A DNA stretch of 64,000 nt from Pseudobdellovibrionaceae bacterium (GTDB lineage Bacteria > Bdellovibrionota > Bdellovibrionia > Bdellovibrionales > Bdellovibrionaceae): contig CANFQX010000002.1 in the NCBI GenBank assembly GCA_947449255.1, positions 248,001 through 312,000 of the forward strand, in the 5' to 3' direction. The number at the start of each line of letters is the position of its first letter. The first letter of the stretch is position 1. Shown piece by piece: positions 18,401 through 33,107 of this stretch. Below the pieces are notes generated by a model. The model was not told the DNA's origin and ran no database searches. It saw only the letters and a list, made by a program, of their open reading frames with translations. The translations under genes were made by a program, and so were the position numbers.

Positions 18401-20692
18401 ATGAGACCTATGGATGACAACTTAGATCAAAATTCAATTGAAGGCTGCCAACTTAAGTCAAACAAGGAAGCCTTCTTAATTAACGAGTTTTTAAAAGAGC
18501 TGCGACCACAACTGCCCATTCAGAACCCAATGCCATTTTTTGTTCACAACAATCCAATTCAATATTGGGAAAAATATAAATTTAAACAGGGTGTCGAGTC
18601 AGCTTGCCTGCTCTATGAGCGAGCAGGCATACAAATAGATCGCAACTTTGCTCGGGAGTTCGAGGATTTGGTCATTCCAATTCTGGCGTCCTATCTTGAT
18701 CAGGGAATGAGACGTTGGACCTCCCATGACCATTTAGGTACCACAGGATTATGGGGCTGGTTCAAGAGTTTTGTTGTTTACAGTTCAAGCTTCAAAAGTG
18801 AAGTATTTGCGGACATAAAAAGAGATTTTAATCTTTGGAGTGAACAAAGCTCTGAAGAGTATATTCGTACCGCTCTAGTTAAGAAATTCAAAACACTTGA
18901 TAACACTTCAGAGTGGCATTTTTATTTGAAATCTCTTTTATTCCACCTCAAAGGCTGGAGTGGAATGGTTCATCTATTTGAGTCGAACCCTAGTTTATAC
19001 CCACTTAAAGAGAAAAAAATATCATTGGTTGATTGGTTAGCTATTCTTGTCTTAGTTGAGAGTAAATTAAGCGCAGTAGATCAACTACCAATTGAAGTGG
19101 ATCCAAAATTACGCCATCAACGCGGGCGAGAGATTCAGTTGGAAATTGCGGACATTAAAAACAACGAAGATCAATTCTATCGAACGATCATAACTGATTT
19201 TCGTGATCAAATTAAAATAAATAGAAATTTAAAAAACCAAACTCCAGTAGCACAAATATTTTTCTGCATCGACGATCGAGAAGAAACCTTACGTAAAATG
19301 ATCGAAAAAATAAATCCACAAATTGAAACCTTTGGAACTGTTGGTTTTTTTGGAATTGATATTGCTATTCGATCTTTGGATCAATTGATTTTTCAGCCCT
19401 TCTGCCCTCCAGTTATCCAGCCTCGTAAAAAAGCGACGGAACTAACCATTCATCAAGTTTCAAGGCTGGAAAATAAGGTCAAGTCTGCCGTGACTGCCTT
19501 CAACCACACTCGATTTACTGTTCTTGAACCATTAATCGCCTTACTTGCTCCATTTTTTTATCTGGCGACGTTATTGATCAGAACGCTGAACTTGGGGTTC
19601 TATGGATGGCTTAGAAACAAGTTTTTGAATCAACCGAATAGAATAGATGACTTAAAGTATGAATTTGAGGATGGGTTTTCTTATTCACTTGCTGAAAAAG
19701 TAAAAATTGTTAAGGACATTCTTAAGTCGGCGGGGCTTAAAGAGAATTTCTCGCAAGTCATAATTATGATGGGCCATGGGGCATCAACCACAAACAATCC
19801 TTTTCAAAAATCATACGGTTGTGGTGCTTGCAGCGGCCAATCGGGTTTTGCTAATGCAAAGATCTTCTGTTCTTTTGCTAATGATGTCTATGTTAGGAAA
19901 TCATTGGCCGAATTAGAGTATCACATTCCAGAGAGTACTATGTTCATTGCTGGACATCATGATACTTGCTCAGATGAGTTCATGCTGGTTGAAGACAAAA
20001 ATATGTCAGTGTCCCAAAAGACCATCCTAAATAATATTAGGATAGATTTAAAGAGATCATTGCAAAAAAATACGGAAGATCGATTTAATCGATTTGGAAT
20101 AGATCTAAGTGAATCACCGGTGGATCGATCCTTGGATTGGTCTCAGCCTCGGCCAGAATATGGGCATTCAAGAGTGGCGATGGCAGTCTTTGGACCACGA
20201 TGGCTGACAGGCAATATGAATTTATCGGGGCGCTCTTTTTTGGTTTCTTACGATCCAAGGAATGATCTCAATGGGGCCGAGCTTGAGTTTGTTATCATGA
20301 ATGCACTGCCTGTTTGTGCTAATATTAACCTGGACTATTTTACATCGCGAGCTTTTCCTGAGGCCTTTGGCTCTGGAAGTAAGCTGCCAATGAATATTGT
20401 TTCTGGGATTGGATTGATGACGGGCTCAAAAGGGGACCTTCGGATTGGTTTAGCTCGTCAGATGGTAGATCGACATGAAGCCTTGAGACTAATCAGTTTT
20501 GTTTTCTGCAAGAAAGAGCACTTGGTCAGTATTATTGGAAAATCTGCCCGCTTGACCAATTTAGTTAAAAACGAATGGATTCACCTAGTTCGTATTGATC
20601 CTGATGACTTTTCAATGGAACCATTTACAGAGCATATTTCAGTGATATTAAACGATAAGTTAACAGAGGAATTTAGTGTTGGAATTTCTTAA
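18401..20692 (+). CDS. dabA: DabA-type inorganic carbon transporter subunit (DUF2309)
   Basis: A 763-residue protein of the DUF2309/DabA family. DabA is a zinc protein related in its site to beta-carbonic anhydrases. With DabB it couples ion flow to conversion of CO2 into cytoplasmic bicarbonate. The predicted zinc-site residues are C289 and D291 (FFCIDDREE), H459 (GHGAS) and C474 (YGCGAC). The spacing C+2 to D and H+15 to C matches that reported for the Halothiobacillus protein (C351, D353, H524, C539). The HNNP stretch near the N terminus is also typical. It starts 3 bases after the SulP stop, and dabB begins inside its last 17 bases. Confidence 0.92.
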   Translation: MRPMDDNLDQNSIEGCQLKSNKEAFLINEFLKELRPQLPIQNPMPFFVHNNPIQYWEKYKFKQGVESACLLYERAGIQIDRNFAREFEDLVIPILASYLDQGMRRWTSHDHLGTTGLWGWFKSFVVYSSSFKSEVFADIKRDFNLWSEQSSEEYIRTALVKKFKTLDNTSEWHFYLKSLLFHLKGWSGMVHLFESNPSLYPLKEKKISLVDWLAILVLVESKLSAVDQLPIEVDPKLRHQRGREIQLEIADIKNNEDQFYRTIITDFRDQIKINRNLKNQTPVAQIFFCIDDREETLRKMIEKINPQIETFGTVGFFGIDIAIRSLDQLIFQPFCPPVIQPRKKATELTIHQVSRLENKVKSAVTAFNHTRFTVLEPLIALLAPFFYLATLLIRTLNLGFYGWLRNKFLNQPNRIDDLKYEFEDGFSYSLAEKVKIVKDILKSAGLKENFSQVIIMMGHGASTTNNPFQKSYGCGACSGQSGFANAKIFCSFANDVYVRKSLAELEYHIPESTMFIAGHHDTCSDEFMLVEDKNMSVSQKTILNNIRIDLKRSLQKNTEDRFNRFGIDLSESPVDRSLDWSQPRPEYGHSRVAMAVFGPRWLTGNMNLSGRSFLVSYDPRNDLNGAELEFVIMNALPVCANINLDYFTSRAFPEAFGSGSKLPMNIVSGIGLMTGSKGDLRIGLARQMVDRHEALRLISFVFCKKEHLVSIIGKSARLTNLVKNEWIHLVRIDPDDFSMEPFTEHISVILNDKLTEEFSVGIS

Positions 20693-22190
20693 TACGATTC
20701 AGGATTTGTTTCATCATTATGAATACGGTTTTTCCTTCAGCCCATTTTCTGTGACTTTTGGTATTCTTATTCTTTTTACCTTGTCCGTCGTCGGAAAATT
20801 CTCGAAAAACTATCTAAAAGGAGAGGTTGGCGCTCCTCGTTTTTGGGTGCTTTTTACCTTCTTTGCATTTGGAATATTGATTTCATGTTTTGCGAAGAAT
20901 CTGACCACTTTTTATGTGGGCTGGGAAATGGTTGGATTGGCGTCCTATTTCTTGATTGGCTTTTACCAGACGAATGCTCGCAGCACTGAAAACTCGATGA
21001 TTGCTTTAGCAAATTACAAGATCTGCGATCTTTTTTTCGTTATGGCCATTCTCCTTGAAGAATCTAAATTGCACACTGCTAGCGGATTTTGCTTAATTAT
21101 TGCGACCCTTGCTAAAAGCGCACAGTTGCCATTTTCTTCTTGGTTGTATCGGGCTTTAGAAGGCCCAACTCCCTCCAGTACGCTATTTTATGGTGGGCTG
21201 TCGTTGCACCTTGGGGCCTTTGCTCTGTTGCAGTTTTCCCCAATGTGGGATCATTCCGTGGCTCTGCGAGTGCTCGTTTTTTTAATCGGTTTTAGTAGTG
21301 CGATTTTTGGATTTTTAGTGGGTTCAACGCGAAGTGATTTAAAAACAGCGTTTGCCTTCGCTTCAATTTCACAAGTAGGGCTTATTTATTGTGAAATGGC
21401 CTTGGGCTTTTATAATTTGGCAATGTGGCATATTGTTGGTCACAATCTATTGAGAACTTGGAATTATCTTCGTGGGATGAGCTTTTTTGATGAGTTTTTT
21501 AAAAAAGAATATCATCAGCAAAAAAGCATTATTTGGGATAATATTTTTGGTTTACTTCCAGATTCATTTTTTATTCATTCATTGAATAGTTTTTATGTGG
21601 ATAGAATTTCAGTTCTATTGCGAAAATGGGGACTGCTGATTTTTACTTTAGTAGCATACTTTAGCTTGTTGATATCGCATGAAGGTGACTTGTTTTCTAT
21701 TCTGTCATTGGGTGCAGGGCTTTTGTTAACGGTTTTACTTTTTGTCAAAGAGCGTATTAAACCAAATCCTTTTTTGGCAGGTTTAGTATTATCGCAGACA
21801 TTATTTCTGGTTTCTATCCACACCTTTTTTGAGGATAGAATTGAGCACTTATATTTAGTCATTTCAATTATGAGTCTGATATTGCTAATGGTTTCATTAT
21901 GGCCCGCAGTTGTTATTTGGAAAAAAAGGCAATCCTCTGGTTTCGATCGACACCAACTTTTGGGTCTTTCAGTTAAGTTGAGAGGGCGACATTTGGTTTT
22001 CTTGGTCTCAGCCATTGCTTTAACTGGATCACCAGGAACTTTTGAGTTTTTTATACAAGAGGGCATACTTGACGAACTATGGTCCAAGTCGCATTTGTTT
22101 TTGGTAGTTTCAATGGTTTGCTTGACGCTAAATACGGTCCATACTTTCAAAATTGGACAACTGGCATTTTTAGGTGACTCCAAAAACTAG
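20676..22190 (+). CDS. dabB: DabB-type NuoL-like membrane subunit
   Basis: A 504-residue polytopic membrane protein of the proton-antiporter (NuoL/MrpA) superfamily. Recognisable parts are the early FYVGWEMVGLASYFLIGFY and the central LAKSAQLPFSSWLYRALEGP with following TPSST. Such subunits provide the ion path. Next to dabA it is the expected DabB partner, not a piece of complex I, and no other nuo gene is present. The GTG at 20676 has AGAGGA 6 bases upstream and overlaps the dabA end by 17 bases, implying coupled synthesis. It ends 5 bases from the convergent AGE-family gene. Confidence 0.85.
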   Translation: MLEFLNTIQDLFHHYEYGFSFSPFSVTFGILILFTLSVVGKFSKNYLKGEVGAPRFWVLFTFFAFGILISCFAKNLTTFYVGWEMVGLASYFLIGFYQTNARSTENSMIALANYKICDLFFVMAILLEESKLHTASGFCLIIATLAKSAQLPFSSWLYRALEGPTPSSTLFYGGLSLHLGAFALLQFSPMWDHSVALRVLVFLIGFSSAIFGFLVGSTRSDLKTAFAFASISQVGLIYCEMALGFYNLAMWHIVGHNLLRTWNYLRGMSFFDEFFKKEYHQQKSIIWDNIFGLLPDSFFIHSLNSFYVDRISVLLRKWGLLIFTLVAYFSLLISHEGDLFSILSLGAGLLLTVLLFVKERIKPNPFLAGLVLSQTLFLVSIHTFFEDRIEHLYLVISIMSLILLMVSLWPAVVIWKKRQSSGFDRHQLLGLSVKLRGRHLVFLVSAIALTGSPGTFEFFIQEGILDELWSKSHLFLVVSMVCLTLNTVHTFKIGQLAFLGDSKN

Positions 22191-26947: not shown

Positions 26948-27703
26948 ATGAGTATAATGAGTTTGCAAAATGTGAAAGTGTGCTTTGAATCCCAAGTCAT
27001 ACTTAAGTCAATAAACTTAGAAATAAAGCGCGGTGAAGCCTTCGTCATTATTGGGCCAAGCGGACAGGGGAAAACAACCCTGTTAAAAACCTTGTCTGGC
27101 CTTGTAACTCCTCAAAATGGCAAAGTATTTATTGAACAGAAAGAATGGCTAACGCTAAGCTTCAAAGAGCAACTCCCCGTACTTAGAAAGATGGGAATAT
27201 TGTTTCAAAAAAATGCTCTGTTCGATTCGTTCACTTGCATTGAAAACATAGCTTTTCCATTGCAAGAATTGGGGACCTTGACCGAAAGGGAAATTGAAAA
27301 AAAGGCTGAGTATTTTTTGGATGCTGTAGGAATGGCTCATGCGCGTGATTTATTTCCTGATGAAATCAGTGGTGGGATGCAAAAGCGACTTGGAATTGCC
27401 AGAGCGTTGGCGTTGGACCCAGAAATTATTTTTTATGACGATCCTACGGCTGGACTCGATCCAATAACGGCCAAAAAAATTATAGATTTAATCATTTTTT
27501 TAAAGAACCAGCAAGATTCCACCATAGTTGCAGTTACTAATGATATGAACCGAGCTTATCAACTTGCAGATCGAATTGGCATGGTCATAGATGGTGGTCT
27601 TTTGATGACTGGAACTCCTGAAGAAACCAGAAATCATCCAGATTTGAGAGTTCAACAGTTTATTCACGGCAATCTTACTGGGCCTTTGAACGCGATGACT
27701 TGA
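26948..27703 (+). CDS. Mla/MCE-type ABC transporter ATPase 1 (non-canonical catalytic residues)
   Basis: A 251-residue ABC ATPase. Walker A is GPSGQGKTT (36-44), the Q-loop is ILFQKNALFDS and the signature is the canonical SGGMQ (141-145). Walker B ends D164-D165 (IFYDDPTAGLDP), so the usual catalytic glutamate is aspartate. The switch position, usually His in SHD, is N198 (VTNDM). The start at 26948 has GAAGGA 7 bases upstream; an in-frame ATG at 26897 is less likely. It is the first gene of a five-gene lipid-transport operon and probably pairs with the second ATPase (27737-28468). Confidence 0.85.
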   Translation: MSIMSLQNVKVCFESQVILKSINLEIKRGEAFVIIGPSGQGKTTLLKTLSGLVTPQNGKVFIEQKEWLTLSFKEQLPVLRKMGILFQKNALFDSFTCIENIAFPLQELGTLTEREIEKKAEYFLDAVGMAHARDLFPDEISGGMQKRLGIARALALDPEIIFYDDPTAGLDPITAKKIIDLIIFLKNQQDSTIVAVTNDMNRAYQLADRIGMVIDGGLLMTGTPEETRNHPDLRVQQFIHGNLTGPLNAMT

Positions 27704-27736
27704 CCCCTTATCGTTTGCGACTTTAAAATTAGAATA

Positions 27737-28468
27737 GTGATTGAATTTAAAGGCCTCATAAAAAAATTTGGAAATCGAACGGTCCTCAATGGGCTGGATT
27801 TAATAATCCGTGAAGGTGAAATTGTTTTTATTTTAGGAACCTCTGGCACAGGTAAATCTGTTTTATTGAAAAACATTGTTGGACTGATGAGGCCCGATGA
27901 AGGTGAGATTTGGATTGATGGTGAGGAAGTCAGTCGTTTTTCTGAGGATCAATATTTTTCCATCAGAAAAAAGTGTGGAATGGTTTTTCAGCAGCCCGCT
28001 TTGTTTGATTCACTGACTGTCTTTGAAAATATAGCCTTTGGACTGCGAAGGCATTTTAGGCTTTCCGAACGAGAAGTTACAGACAGAGTCCAACTTGCCT
28101 TAAAATTGGTGAATATTCAGGGGGTCGAACAAAAGCGCCCGACTCAAATGTCTTATGGAATGCAAAAGAGAGTCAGTCTAGCGCGCACAATTGCACTGCA
28201 ACCAAAAATTTTGCTTTTTGATGAACCAACAACAGGTTTAGATCCAATCACTACCACCGTAATAAATCACCTGATCCAAGATTTATCCAAGCAACTCAAA
28301 TCAACTTCAATTGTTGTAAGTCATGATATGAACTGTGCTCTTTCAATTGCAGATCGAATTGTTGTCCTAGATAAAGGTCAGATTGAAGCAATCGGAACAC
28401 CAGATGAGCTTAAAAAATCACAGCACCCCCTGGTCAGAGATTTTCTAGCGGAGGTATTGAGTTTATGA
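27737..28468 (+). CDS. Mla/MCE-type ABC transporter ATPase 2 (altered signature)
   Basis: A 243-residue ABC ATPase resembling MlaF. Walker A is GTSGTGKS (34-41), Walker B LLFDEPTTGLDP has the catalytic E163, and the switch histidine H196 (VSHDM) is present. The signature reads MSYGMQ (138-143), with tyrosine where the first glycine of SGG is usual. It starts with GTG at 27737. The next gene overlaps its stop by ATGA. MlaF homologues power phospholipid movement between the membranes through MCE proteins. The two ATPases differ clearly and are likely to form a heterodimer. Confidence 0.87.
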   Translation: MIEFKGLIKKFGNRTVLNGLDLIIREGEIVFILGTSGTGKSVLLKNIVGLMRPDEGEIWIDGEEVSRFSEDQYFSIRKKCGMVFQQPALFDSLTVFENIAFGLRRHFRLSEREVTDRVQLALKLVNIQGVEQKRPTQMSYGMQKRVSLARTIALQPKILLFDEPTTGLDPITTTVINHLIQDLSKQLKSTSIVVSHDMNCALSIADRIVVLDKGQIEAIGTPDELKKSQHPLVRDFLAEVLSL

Positions 28469-29244
28469 AATTCCTCGCTGAAATTTTTGGAGAGCTGGGC
28501 GGCACACTTCTTTTTTTGAAAACAATAATGACAACCTTGGTTAATAAGAAAATTAGAAGGAGCGATGTCTTTACACAAATTTGGTCAGTTATTATAGCAA
28601 GCTTTCCAACGACGGCAATGGCAGGATTTTTTGTAGGCGCTATTATGACCGTACAATTTGCTTTATTGATGAATGAATTTGGAGCCTTGGGATATTTAGG
28701 TGGGCTTTCGACCAGCGCGACGGTCAGGGAGATAGGACCATTACTCATTGCATTTATGCTGAGTGGAAAAGTTGGTGCCTTCACCTCAGCTGAATTGGGA
28801 ACAATGCGAGTGACGGAACAGATCGATGCCATACGTTGTCTAGGCTCAGATCCATTACAAGAAATTATTGTCCCCAGATTTATTGGTATTGTGATAGCTA
28901 GTTTTTTTCTATTGGGATTTGGGCTTATCATGTCTATTTTTGGTGGAATGATTTTAGGTGATATTTTTGCTGGCGTAAACTTTCAGGAGTATTTAAGGCA
29001 TATACCGACGGTGGTGAATCCAGTTTCAATATTATTTGGAACTGTTAAATGTGGCTCGTTCGCTGTGGTTACAGCGACAGTATCAACCTATAAAGGATTT
29101 ACAACGACGGGTGGCGCCAAGGGTGTAGGTAAAGCCGTAGTTTCTACCTCAGTCATGACTATGATTTTGATTGTGCTGATGGATTGGTTCACTAGTTTCA
29201 TCGGTGATATTGTTTTGCAAATCGCACGAGGCTACCGCTCATGA
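28465..29244 (+). CDS. MlaE-family permease 1
   Basis: A 259-residue inner-membrane permease of the MlaE/YrbE type with about five or six membrane segments. The coupling stretch REIGPLLIAFMLSGKVGAF followed by LGTMRVTEQIDAIRCLGSDP is highly typical. It starts in ATGA overlap with the second ATPase and ends in ATGA overlap with the second permease. The two permeases probably form the membrane dimer beneath the MCE ring. Confidence 0.9.
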   Translation: MKFLAEIFGELGGTLLFLKTIMTTLVNKKIRRSDVFTQIWSVIIASFPTTAMAGFFVGAIMTVQFALLMNEFGALGYLGGLSTSATVREIGPLLIAFMLSGKVGAFTSAELGTMRVTEQIDAIRCLGSDPLQEIIVPRFIGIVIASFFLLGFGLIMSIFGGMILGDIFAGVNFQEYLRHIPTVVNPVSILFGTVKCGSFAVVTATVSTYKGFTTTGGAKGVGKAVVSTSVMTMILIVLMDWFTSFIGDIVLQIARGYRS

Positions 29245-29960
29245 TTTCATTATTTACTGAGACTTTCTTGGGTGTATTCAGACCTCCATTTAGGAAAAAA
29301 GAGTTTTTTCAACAGCTTCATTTTGTAGCTAACACCAGCCTCGCCATTATTGTATTTTGCGTTAGTTTTGCAGCCATCGTGACTATTTTGGAGTCATCTT
29401 TTCATATGAAGCTAGTTATTCAGAATGATTCAATGGTTCCTGGCTTTGCAGCGGTGTTGATACTGCGTGAATTGGCTGCCATTGTGACTGCCCTTTTGTT
29501 AGCGTCCAGAATAGGAGCAGGATATGCCGCAGAAATTGGAAGTATGCAGATCACAGAGCAAATTGACGCCTTAAAAATGCTTGGAATAGACCCAATCAAC
29601 TATTTGGTCGTACCAAGATTTTTGGCGAGTATTGCTGGAACTATGATGTTAACTGTGATTGCCAATGTCTTCTGCCTTTTGTCAGCCATTTTAGTGAGTC
29701 AGCTTTATCTTGGCTTTACTTTCGGTATGTTCATTTCGTCGATGCACCGCTTTGTTCATTTTCAGGACATTATTTTTTCTATGATAAAGGGTGCTTGCTT
29801 TGGGGCCGTCATTCCAATTGTTGCTAGCTATTTTGGCTTCAATTGTAAGCAAGGGGCAGAAGGTGTGGGACATGCCACTACAAATACTGTGGTCTTGGCA
29901 TCCATTGGTATCATTGTCGTTGATTTTATTTTGTCTTATACTTTCAGTCATATTTATTAG
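29241..29960 (+). CDS. MlaE-family permease 2
   Basis: A 239-residue permease paralogous to the preceding gene. It shows LRELAAIVTALLLASRIGAG, MQITEQIDALKMLGIDPINYLVVPRF in two parts, and five or six membrane segments. The two permeases are clearly different in sequence, which suits an asymmetric transporter. It overlaps the preceding gene by 4 bases. The MCE gene starts 52 bases after its stop. Confidence 0.9.
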   Translation: MISLFTETFLGVFRPPFRKKEFFQQLHFVANTSLAIIVFCVSFAAIVTILESSFHMKLVIQNDSMVPGFAAVLILRELAAIVTALLLASRIGAGYAAEIGSMQITEQIDALKMLGIDPINYLVVPRFLASIAGTMMLTVIANVFCLLSAILVSQLYLGFTFGMFISSMHRFVHFQDIIFSMIKGACFGAVIPIVASYFGFNCKQGAEGVGHATTNTVVLASIGIIVVDFILSYTFSHIY

Positions 29961-30012: not shown

Positions 30013-30789
30013 ATGAAGGCAGAAACCAAGGTTGGAATATTAGGTGTTTTCTGTATTGTTTTGCTGACTGTGTTCGCCTATTTAATGGGAGTCATTTCGC
30101 CGTTTTCTAACACCAAAGAATTATTTGTTGCCTATAATTATGCAGGTGGAATAGAGGAAGGGTCTCCAGTTCGGGTCATGGGTATTAAGGTTGGCAAAGT
30201 TAAAGAAATTACTTTTGATCCCTCCTTTAAAATGCCAAACGGGGAAGAAGCGAAGCTGAGATTGAAAATAAGCATTGATAAAAAAGCTTGGTCAAGCATT
30301 CGAAAAGATTCAAAGTTTTTTATAAACCTTGCTGGTGTCATAGGTGAAAAATTTTTAGAAATTTCTGCGGGGTCCGTCGACACTGGTGAGTTTTCGAATG
30401 GAGACTACGTTCGTGGCGAGGATCCTCCAAGGATTGATCAATTAATCTCTCAAGGATACGGCCTTGCAGGCAAATTGCTTGAAGTAGTAGAGAAAAACAA
30501 GGGCTCAGTCACCAGCGTAATAACTCAATTAGATCACTTGGCTACAAATGTTAACAAGACCTTAGTGCTATTGGATAAAGCGACAAAAAATCGTGAAGTT
30601 GCAAAGTTATTGGATAACGCCATAAAAATCAGCGACGACCTTGCTTACTTGACGAATGGTATGAGATCAAAGAAGGCAGAAGAAACCTACGAACTAATGC
30701 ACAAGTTATTATTTAGACTAGAGCCAATGGATGGACCCGCAATAAAGAAGTTTTTTCAGCAAGAGGGAATCAAAGCCCACTTGTTCTAG
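30013..30789 (+). CDS. MCE-domain (MlaD-like) substrate-binding protein
   Basis: A 258-residue protein with one N-terminal membrane segment (about residues 7-28) and a periplasmic MCE domain (about 35-125; EEGSPVRVMGIKVGKVKEI is typical). A helical C-terminal tail follows, which in homologues helps build the hexameric lipid channel. I used the ATG at 30013 because GGAG lies 5 bases upstream. The open frame extends back to 29791, but that part overlaps the permease gene in another frame and has no binding site. It is the likely single MCE component of the two-ATPase, two-permease system. No MlaB or MlaC gene is adjacent. Confidence 0.87.
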   Translation: MKAETKVGILGVFCIVLLTVFAYLMGVISPFSNTKELFVAYNYAGGIEEGSPVRVMGIKVGKVKEITFDPSFKMPNGEEAKLRLKISIDKKAWSSIRKDSKFFINLAGVIGEKFLEISAGSVDTGEFSNGDYVRGEDPPRIDQLISQGYGLAGKLLEVVEKNKGSVTSVITQLDHLATNVNKTLVLLDKATKNREVAKLLDNAIKISDDLAYLTNGMRSKKAEETYELMHKLLFRLEPMDGPAIKKFFQQEGIKAHLF

Positions 30790-30850: not shown

Positions 30851-31453
30851 ATGGCACAAAGGTTTTTAGCACTTTTACTAATGATCTGGTTTCTTCTGAT
30901 CCATGTACCAGCATTTTCGGCTGAATCCATGAATTCAGGGTCCAATTCAGTGGCCAATGAAAGTTCAATGACTTATTCATCAACATTAAAAATGCGTGAG
31001 AGTTTAAGAATGGGCGCAGGAGCATCCGTTGGTGGTCAGCTTGGACTATGGGGCTTAAATGCAGAGTTAAATTTTGAAGATGAAAATAGCGCCATTGCAG
31101 GTGTTGGGGCTGGACCAGGATATCGCTCTGTACAGTTGGCATGGAAGCATTCGTTTGATGGGGATTATTTAGCTCCTTATTATTCTGTTGGATATTCACA
31201 TTGGTACAACTCGGACATCTCAAATGACCAGTGGAAGGAATCAAGCATATTAAGACGAGTTTTGACCGCCGATGAAAAGCGCAAAGGCCAGTATGGTACT
31301 GATTTTGTGAATGTTTCGATGGGGCTTCAGTATAATCAGCTCTCTGGAGATTTTTATGGATTTTCCTGTTATGCAGAAATCATGGGTATGTATGAAATCA
31401 AGCGCTCTCAGCTGATACCATCAGGCGCCATAGGGTCGACTTATTATTTTTGA
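30851..31453 (+). CDS. Exported beta-rich protein, probable outer-membrane protein
   Basis: A 200-residue protein with a signal peptide (about residues 1-24, cleavage near AFSA). The mature part has alternating polar/hydrophobic strands, glycine-rich turns, and a C terminus ending GAIGSTYYF with terminal Phe. This is the look of a small outer-membrane beta-barrel. GAGGAG lies about 5 bases before the ATG. It follows the MCE gene by 61 bases and may be the outer-membrane end of the same lipid pathway, though it could also be independent. A terminator follows at 31547-31583. Confidence 0.65.
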   Translation: MAQRFLALLLMIWFLLIHVPAFSAESMNSGSNSVANESSMTYSSTLKMRESLRMGAGASVGGQLGLWGLNAELNFEDENSAIAGVGAGPGYRSVQLAWKHSFDGDYLAPYYSVGYSHWYNSDISNDQWKESSILRRVLTADEKRKGQYGTDFVNVSMGLQYNQLSGDFYGFSCYAEIMGMYEIKRSQLIPSGAIGSTYYF

Positions 31454-31799: not shown

Positions 31800-31944
31800 G
31801 TGCTCCTCCTAGGATGCAAACGTTGTTGTTGTTGTTCACTTAATTAAAATCTATCTGTTTCTATTTTTGCTAATTCGACCATCAACGTCAAGAAAAAAAT
31901 TCTTGCATATTTTTTGCGTTCACCAGAATTCACGGAGGCAACTT

Positions 31945-32685
31945 ATGTACATCCTTGTTTCAGTTTCGATGATCGGACTTTTGCTCGCTCATCGTACCTT
32001 TTCGGTGAGTGCAAAGGAATTTGCAATCTCAAAATGCAATCAAAGTTTATTATTTTCACTTCTAGTGCTTCTGATTTCAATTCTAGTCATGAGTTTTCAC
32101 TCAACACCATTAATGCTCTGGCTTTTCATCGGCATAATTTCAATTACCTTAAAGTGTTTCCCTTACTTTTTACGATTTTTTTTATTAAAGCGACTTGTTG
32201 GTTTATTAATTCCATTGCTCGATAGCGTAATCTTGGGATTGCAAACGGGGAAATCATTTCGTTTGGCACTTTTTTCGGCGATCGAAAATCAACAGGGTTG
32301 GCAAAGGAATCAGCTCCGCGAAATATACAATTCTATCATCTCATCAGAGAGCATTCCTTCGATAAGATGCCTGATGATAAAGGATTTGCAGGCAGAGTTA
32401 GTAGAAATTGATCGTTCACAAAATAGAATCATAGATCAGATTAGAACCCTAAGAAGGCACTTAAAAATACAAGAAAATTTCCGACGTAGGTCCGGACAGG
32501 TCACACAACAAATAAAAATGCAGGCAATAATTGTCACCGGGCTCTTTACTGCCTTGTTGATCTTTGTTGTTAGGCAATTTGGCTTTATTGAGTATAAAAA
32601 TCTAATTTTCCTGTCAGTCACTATTTTTTTAATTGGCCTGATTTGGATTTTTAGTGTTGGAAGGAGAATGAAATGGAAGGTTTAG
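31945..32685 (+). CDS. TadB/T2SF-like membrane protein (tentative)
   Basis: A 246-residue protein with two N-terminal hydrophobic hairpins, a cytoplasmic helical region of about 100 residues and two C-terminal membrane segments (about 190-208 and 215-235). LGLQTGKSFRLALFSA and LRRHLKIQENFRRRSGQVTQQIKMQA resemble the T2SF-type platform proteins TadB/GspF. The ATG at 31945 has CGGAGG 7 bases upstream. The next gene starts inside its last 13 bases. No TadA ATPase is nearby, so this pair is detached from a full pilus operon or diverged. Identity is inferred from topology and pattern. Confidence 0.5.
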   Translation: MYILVSVSMIGLLLAHRTFSVSAKEFAISKCNQSLLFSLLVLLISILVMSFHSTPLMLWLFIGIISITLKCFPYFLRFFLLKRLVGLLIPLLDSVILGLQTGKSFRLALFSAIENQQGWQRNQLREIYNSIISSESIPSIRCLMIKDLQAELVEIDRSQNRIIDQIRTLRRHLKIQENFRRRSGQVTQQIKMQAIIVTGLFTALLIFVVRQFGFIEYKNLIFLSVTIFLIGLIWIFSVGRRMKWKV

Positions 32686-33107
32686 CGCCGCCTTTAGCCT
32701 TATTGTTGGCCGTAAAGCGAACTTTAGAAAAGGGGCATCCCACAAAACAGGGGATTCATCTTTATTTAAAACGACACCAGGGAGAGTTTGTTGCAGTTGT
32801 TACTCAGTGGCTAGCATTGATCCAGCAAGGAAAGGAGACTCAGAGCCTGATTTCTGGCATTTCCTCTCAACATAGGCAGGTCCTTTTGCAGCTTTTGGAA
32901 AGAGGGCTTCGTGGAGAGGCAATATACAATGTGGTGTTAACCCTTGAGGAGGAGATTTTAGAAGCCTGTCACGAGGAGCTAACTAATAAATTGGCCCGGT
33001 TGCCTTTTATTTTGCTGATTCCCTTGTTGCTCTTTCAATTCCCGGCATTTTTATTGATTCTTTTTGGACCGCTATTGCAAAATTTTTTTCACTCTTTGGC
33101 TGGGTGA
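32673..33107 (+). CDS. TadC-like small membrane protein (tentative)
   Basis: A 144-residue protein, shorter than usual T2SF proteins (about 250-300). The cytoplasmic helical part has LLQLLERGLRGEAIYNVVLTLEEEI in two helices, and the C-terminal segment (about 109-137, FILLIPLLLFQFPAFLLILFG) is hydrophobic with the PxxxF pattern common near the end of TadB/TadC. GAAGGAGA lies about 5 bases before the ATG. It overlaps the preceding gene by 13 bases. It may be a half-sized platform protein partner. Confidence 0.45.
   Translation: MEGLAPPLALLLAVKRTLEKGHPTKQGIHLYLKRHQGEFVAVVTQWLALIQQGKETQSLISGISSQHRQVLLQLLERGLRGEAIYNVVLTLEEEILEACHEELTNKLARLPFILLIPLLLFQFPAFLLILFGPLLQNFFHSLAG

Follow-up and report, generated by a model that had tools for sequence, protein, structure and literature searches.

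The window, by which we mean the whole 64,000-nucleotide stretch of DNA that was analysed, holds an operon in which the genes for two ABC ATPases (A1 and A2) are followed by those for two permeases (P1 and P2), an MCE protein and a barrel protein with a signal peptide. Its features are listed below with their coordinates in the window, the two PF02405 E values being given in the order P1, P2.

26948..27703, plus strand: ATPase 1 (A1), an MlaF-like ABC ATPase of 251 amino acids that starts at ATG 26948 and carries a degenerate Walker B/His half-site
27440..27442, plus strand: codon (GAT) of A1 D165, at the catalytic-Glu position of Walker B, counted from ATG 26948
27539..27541, plus strand: codon (AAT) of A1 N198, at the switch-His position, counted from ATG 26948
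27737..28468, plus strand: ATPase 2 (A2), an MlaF-like ABC ATPase of 243 amino acids with a GTG start
28154..28156, plus strand: codon of A2 Y140, which replaces the first signature Gly, counted from GTG 27737
28465..29244, plus strand: permease 1 (P1), MlaE family (PF02405, E 9.3e-58)
29241..29960, plus strand: permease 2 (P2), MlaE family (PF02405, E 2.5e-61)
30013..30789, plus strand: MCE (MlaD-domain) protein (PF02470, E 5.6e-17)
30851..31453, plus strand: outer-membrane protein with a signal peptide and an 8-stranded beta barrel (AlphaFold2 pLDDT 90.5)

An SD-like AGAAGGA sits directly 5′ of the A1 start codon, and the start of P1 overlaps the stop of A2 by 4 bases, as the start of P2 does the stop of P1. 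A1 carries a Walker A GPSGQGKT at residue 36, a signature SGGMQ (141-145) and a Walker B IIFYDD (D164-D165), while A2 carries a Walker A GTSGTGKS, a signature S139-Y140-G141-M-Q, DE (E163) and SHD (H196). A first-pass annotation of the same DNA had reported D165, N198 and SGGMQ in A1, and a normal Glu and His together with SYGMQ in A2, and its residues, numbering and coordinates were all right. The barrel gene is the sixth gene of the operon in many relatives as well. In three relatives with a large gap between A1 and A2, the genes that lie in the gap differ from one another and were set aside as insertions rather than parts of the operon.

The predicted products, which combine MlaE permeases, an MCE-domain protein and ATPases akin to MlaF, assign the operon to the type VIII (MCE/Mla) ABC class. 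The best PDB matches of A1 include the MlaF chains 7ch8_I (E 1.2e-46) and 6xbd_I (E 5.6e-44). With the NCBIfam MlaF model, A1 reaches 177 bits and A2 214 bits, short of the equivalog cut-off of 441 bits, and by this model neither ATPase is an MlaF orthologue. For the MCE protein, the AlphaFold2 model (mean pLDDT 71.6) has an N-terminal membrane helix, one MCE domain and a helical tail of about 100 residues, the tail being at low confidence. The barrel protein is predicted with confidence to resemble the N-domains of OprF and OmpA most (Foldseek matches 4rlc, E 1.4e-06, and 1qjp, E 1.1e-05). No MlaB STAS gene was found in the operon, and profiles for MlaA (PF04333) and MlaC (PF05494), which found both proteins in control genomes, had no match in the whole genome, despite its four MCE systems. 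Since the genome is without MlaA and MlaC, this is not the canonical Mla pathway.

The closest described systems differ from this operon in their subunits. MlaFEDB of E. coli, Pseudomonas and Acinetobacter (type VIII; PDB 6xbd, 7ch8) shares with it the MlaE permeases, the MlaF-like ATPases and the MCE/MlaD protein, but is built from two identical MlaF and two identical MlaE subunits with near two-fold symmetry (PMC7790496); MlaF is therefore the symmetric homodimer that the first-pass annotation took it to be, whereas the present operon has two diverged copies each of ATPase and permease. Instead of the single homodimeric ATPase of canonical Mla there are two diverged genes, and their losses are complementary wherever both are readable. 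Mycobacterial Mce1 (YrbE1A/YrbE1B with MceG) shares a heteromeric MlaE-type permease pair, but it combines an MceG homodimer with six different MCE proteins (PMC9882608), where the present operon has two differing ATPases and one MCE gene. In the open-access literature, outside which most subscription papers and preprints fall, we found no MCE/Mla transporter that is reported to have a degenerate site or a pair of unlike ATPases.

For each ATP site of an ABC transporter, one subunit supplies the Walker A/B motifs, the Q-loop and the His, and its partner supplies the signature (PMC7756269). From the letters of the window it had been proposed that all deviations are concentrated in the site made of A1 Walker motifs and A2 signature, with the opposite site canonical, and the co-conservation of the substitutions in relatives had been named as a check. 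We ran this check on genomes of the family (66), the order (141) and the phylum (369), the last being Bdellovibrionota to judge from named records, whose taxa include Bdellovibrio, Bdellovibrionales, Bacteriovoracaceae and Oligoflexia; the loci were fetched and all their ATPases aligned. The resulting set comprises 115 non-redundant A1-A2 pairs, with identities to the window down to 34% (A1) and 49% (A2). Pairs were found via similarity to A2, which is mildly selected as a result, while A1 outside the family was taken by adjacency and hence is unselected. Three single-ATPase systems with an SGG signature (L191, L195 and L197) also passed the A2 threshold, so the aromatic A2 residue was not forced by it.

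The substitutions co-occur in every pair found. At the A1 Glu position there is Asp in 90 pairs, Glu in 24 and Ser in one (L194), and at the A1 His position Asn in 102, Ser in eight, Thr in two and His in three; the three A1 that retain His have Asp (two) or Ser (one) at the Glu position, and not one of the 115 has Glu and His both intact. The A1 signature is SGG throughout (115/115), and the Walker A Lys, Walker B Asp, Q-loop Gln and D-loop Asp of A1 are equally constant (115/115). The opposite holds for A2, which has its Glu in 115/115 pairs and its His in all 114 that are readable, and in which the first signature Gly is replaced by Tyr (106) or Phe (9) and is never present (0/115). One further, partly incomplete pair has an SHG signature (L220), and in three pairs the A2 signature is eroded further (L175, L176, L198). 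All deviations thus fall within one composite site, formed by the Walker motifs and His of A1 and the signature of A2. Of the set of substitutions first described, A1 Asp/Asn with A2 Tyr, what stands is the aromatic A2 signature residue and the broken A1 Glu/His pair, which are the constant features; the Glu-to-Asp change is optional and was ruled out as a defining feature, as 24 of the 115 pairs keep Glu.

As controls we used 54 single-ATPase MCE systems of other phyla, collected with the same genome-contig scan, together with E. coli MlaF. All were canonical at every position, although for Glu this result is to some extent a product of the search, since DEP was part of one of its two patterns; neither pattern contained the His or the signature. 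Chance can be excluded as the source of the split, because the same split occurs in 115/115 pairs and in 0/54 controls.

The pairing of a working ATP site with a crippled one is familiar from human TAP and CFTR. We take CFTR, MRP1 and TAP2 to be altered at the same signature Gly as A2. In TAP1/2, ABCC/CFTR, TM287/288 and BmrCD there are likewise two different nucleotide-binding domains (NBDs) and the deviations lie in one composite site, one NBD having a changed signature and its partner a changed Walker B Glu and H-loop (PMC7756269, PMC5216877); here the signature is altered in A2 only, and Glu and His in A1 only. Among human degenerate sites, a signature change is present in all, Glu-to-Asp is the next commonest, Ser occurs in CFTR and H-loop changes are frequent (PMC7756269). 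The pattern matches closely, because the signature, Glu-to-Asp, Ser and H-loop changes all occur among our pairs, and the likeness to asymmetric heterodimeric exporters that the first reading had drawn holds motif by motif. What differs is the membrane part: TM287/288, TAP and BmrCD have an exporter-type membrane domain fused to the NBD, whereas here stand-alone ATPases akin to MlaF go with MlaE permeases.

We infer from these sequences, with a probability of about 0.83, that the operon encodes an obligate 2+2 heteromeric MCE transporter, its ATPases forming a heterodimer in which one site hydrolyses ATP and the other mostly holds it. The alternative that survives best, improbable as we consider it, is that the two sites are catalytically equal, the Asp/Asn and the aromatic signature residue being compensated in such a way that both hydrolyse. 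It could draw on the Glu kept in 24 pairs and on the slow hydrolysis by degenerate sites that carry Asp, at a rate far too low for transport (PMC7756269), but every pair is without the signature Gly and at least one of Glu and His, like sites measured as impaired elsewhere, and substitutions occur at the positions of the degenerate site but not at those of its counterpart.

This difference was counted on a tree, because the 115 pairs, which share one ancestral event, are not 115 events and only 21 later changes are independent. On a tree of concatenated A1 and A2, from which the motif columns had been removed, at least 21 changes by parsimony (6+6+5+1+3) fall at the positions of the degenerate site (A1 Glu, A1 His and A2 S-G-G), against none at those of the consensus site (A2 Glu, A2 His and A1 S-G-G), a difference that gives p ~1e-6 in a sign test assuming equal rates. 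Mean motif entropy is likewise higher in the degenerate composite site (0.58 bits) than in the consensus site (0.19 bits), with 1.06 bits (A1) against 0.07 (A2) for the H-loop and 0.16 (A1) against 0.60 (A2) for the signature.

A second alternative is that the operon encodes two separate homodimeric transporters, in which A1:A1 and A2:A2 would each have a permease of their own. Two permeases are on hand, and the characterised MCE ATPases MlaF (PMC7790496) and MceG (PMC9882608) are both homodimers. The arrangement of the genes speaks against it. A1, A2, P1 and P2 share one operon with one MCE gene, and each has a single origin: in a tree of the ATPases that included those of single-ATPase MCE systems, A2 forms one group and A1, with its orphan paralogues, another (SH-aLRT 99 each), and in the permease trees P1 and P2 each form one group (SH-aLRT 100), the quick tree method being one that inflates support for long rows and leaves the deeper branching order of A1 unreliable. 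The four genes also travel together; in the 66 genomes of the family A1 and A2 are both present in 48 and both absent from 17, and A2 stands alone in one, which is incomplete. The genome has four MCE proteins and five MlaE permeases, and its three other MCE systems (contigs C5, C9 and C17) consist of one permease and one ATPase each. The 2+2 heteromer fits with this being the sole operon of the genome with two permeases and two ATPases. We rejected the separate homodimers, to which we give very little weight, on the grounds that either homodimer would have two damaged sites, that the parts which make up the shared canonical site, the A1 signature and the A2 Glu and His, are nonetheless invariant, and that there is a single MCE gene for two permeases. 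Least likely of all is that A1 is decaying or regulatory and its Walker/His changes are relaxed drift, with A2 working as a homodimer or A1 as an inert scaffold, for although A1 does evolve more quickly (median identity 55%, as against 64% for A2; mean entropy 1.64 bits, as against 1.21 bits), two A2 subunits together would lack a canonical signature, A1 keeps its nucleotide-binding residues and SGG in every pair, and its signature is, save for the D-loop, its most conserved motif, which is what its role in completing a functional site would predict.

In the heteromeric transporter that we favour, a Mla-type (type VIII) machine presumably moving lipids, one A1 and one A2 would form the ATPase pair beneath a P1-P2 permease pair, above which a ring of the MCE protein would stand, probably leading to the co-encoded outer-membrane barrel. 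The Walker A/B motifs and His of A2 with the signature of A1 would make the canonical site, which would hydrolyse ATP in every cycle; those of A1 with the signature of A2 would make the degenerate one. The latter should bind ATP, because the Walker A Lys, Walker B Asp and Q-loop Gln are kept, and should hydrolyse it slowly or not at all, because of the altered Glu/His pair and the aromatic signature residue. It is not necessarily dead, as Asp can support slow hydrolysis and some pairs keep Glu. In characterised transporters, a degenerate site holds nucleotide and stops full separation of the NBDs (PMC5216877), and the site described here may similarly hold both ATPases together through the cycle, at an expected cost of about one ATP hydrolysed per stroke.

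Orphan A1-like ATPases, which nest inside the A1 group and have Asp at the Glu position and His at the switch position, occur in the same genome (C4:197558-198292; L002, L018:8550-9320) and at other loci (L061-L066, L068, L072, L074, L075). No MlaE permease or MCE gene lies beside them in the fetched stretches. The A1 lineage can therefore exist without a neighbouring permease, which counts against the obligate heteromer; an orphan might possibly be an exchangeable subunit. As a tentative extension, which we think rather doubtful, the motor could be asymmetric throughout the phylum, with one site holding ATP over many cycles so that the ATPase pair and the MCE channel stay engaged, one ATP spent per lipid stroke, the diverged permease halves fixing its handedness, and His-bearing orphans perhaps swapping in and altering the degenerate site.

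Why one ATP site is crippled in many ABC transporters is a question that has been studied almost only in exporters. The operon would place the same arrangement in a different membrane fold and in small, separate bacterial subunits, and would thereby allow the question to be tested outside the exporter fold. It would also break the assumption that Mla/MCE machines have a symmetric ATPase pair, in a putative lipid-transport system common to predatory bacteria and their relatives, found here in a genome that has neither MlaA nor MlaC.

The ATPase of the MCE system on contig C17 (C17:29775-30482; L019:4776-5483, minus strand; L282), which lies next to a single permease gene and a single MCE gene, is degenerate at almost all of its motifs: the Walker A Lys is kept, while the Q-loop Gln is changed to Asp, LSGGQ to VPGR, the Glu to Asp, the D-loop Asp to Gly and the His to Tyr. 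ATPases of this type are present in 49 of the 66 family genomes, with motifs that are near-invariant in the 30 sequences examined, and the protein would have two degenerate sites if it forms a homodimer. The A1/A2 operon is absent from genomes G043-G056 (genus code g17), G001, G032 and G041, and the g17 genomes also have no C17-type ATPase; the absence of the operon is possibly tied to lifestyle.

Elsewhere in the window, at 18401-22190, a DabA gene (PF10070, E 4.4e-150) is followed by one for a NuoL/Mrp-like membrane protein (PF00361), the gene arrangement of a DAB-type pump for inorganic carbon, here in a predatory bacterium. Finally, 31867-33107 holds two small genes, the second of which weakly matches type II secretion protein F (E 0.00077, below cut-off), which suggests a TadB/TadC-like pair.
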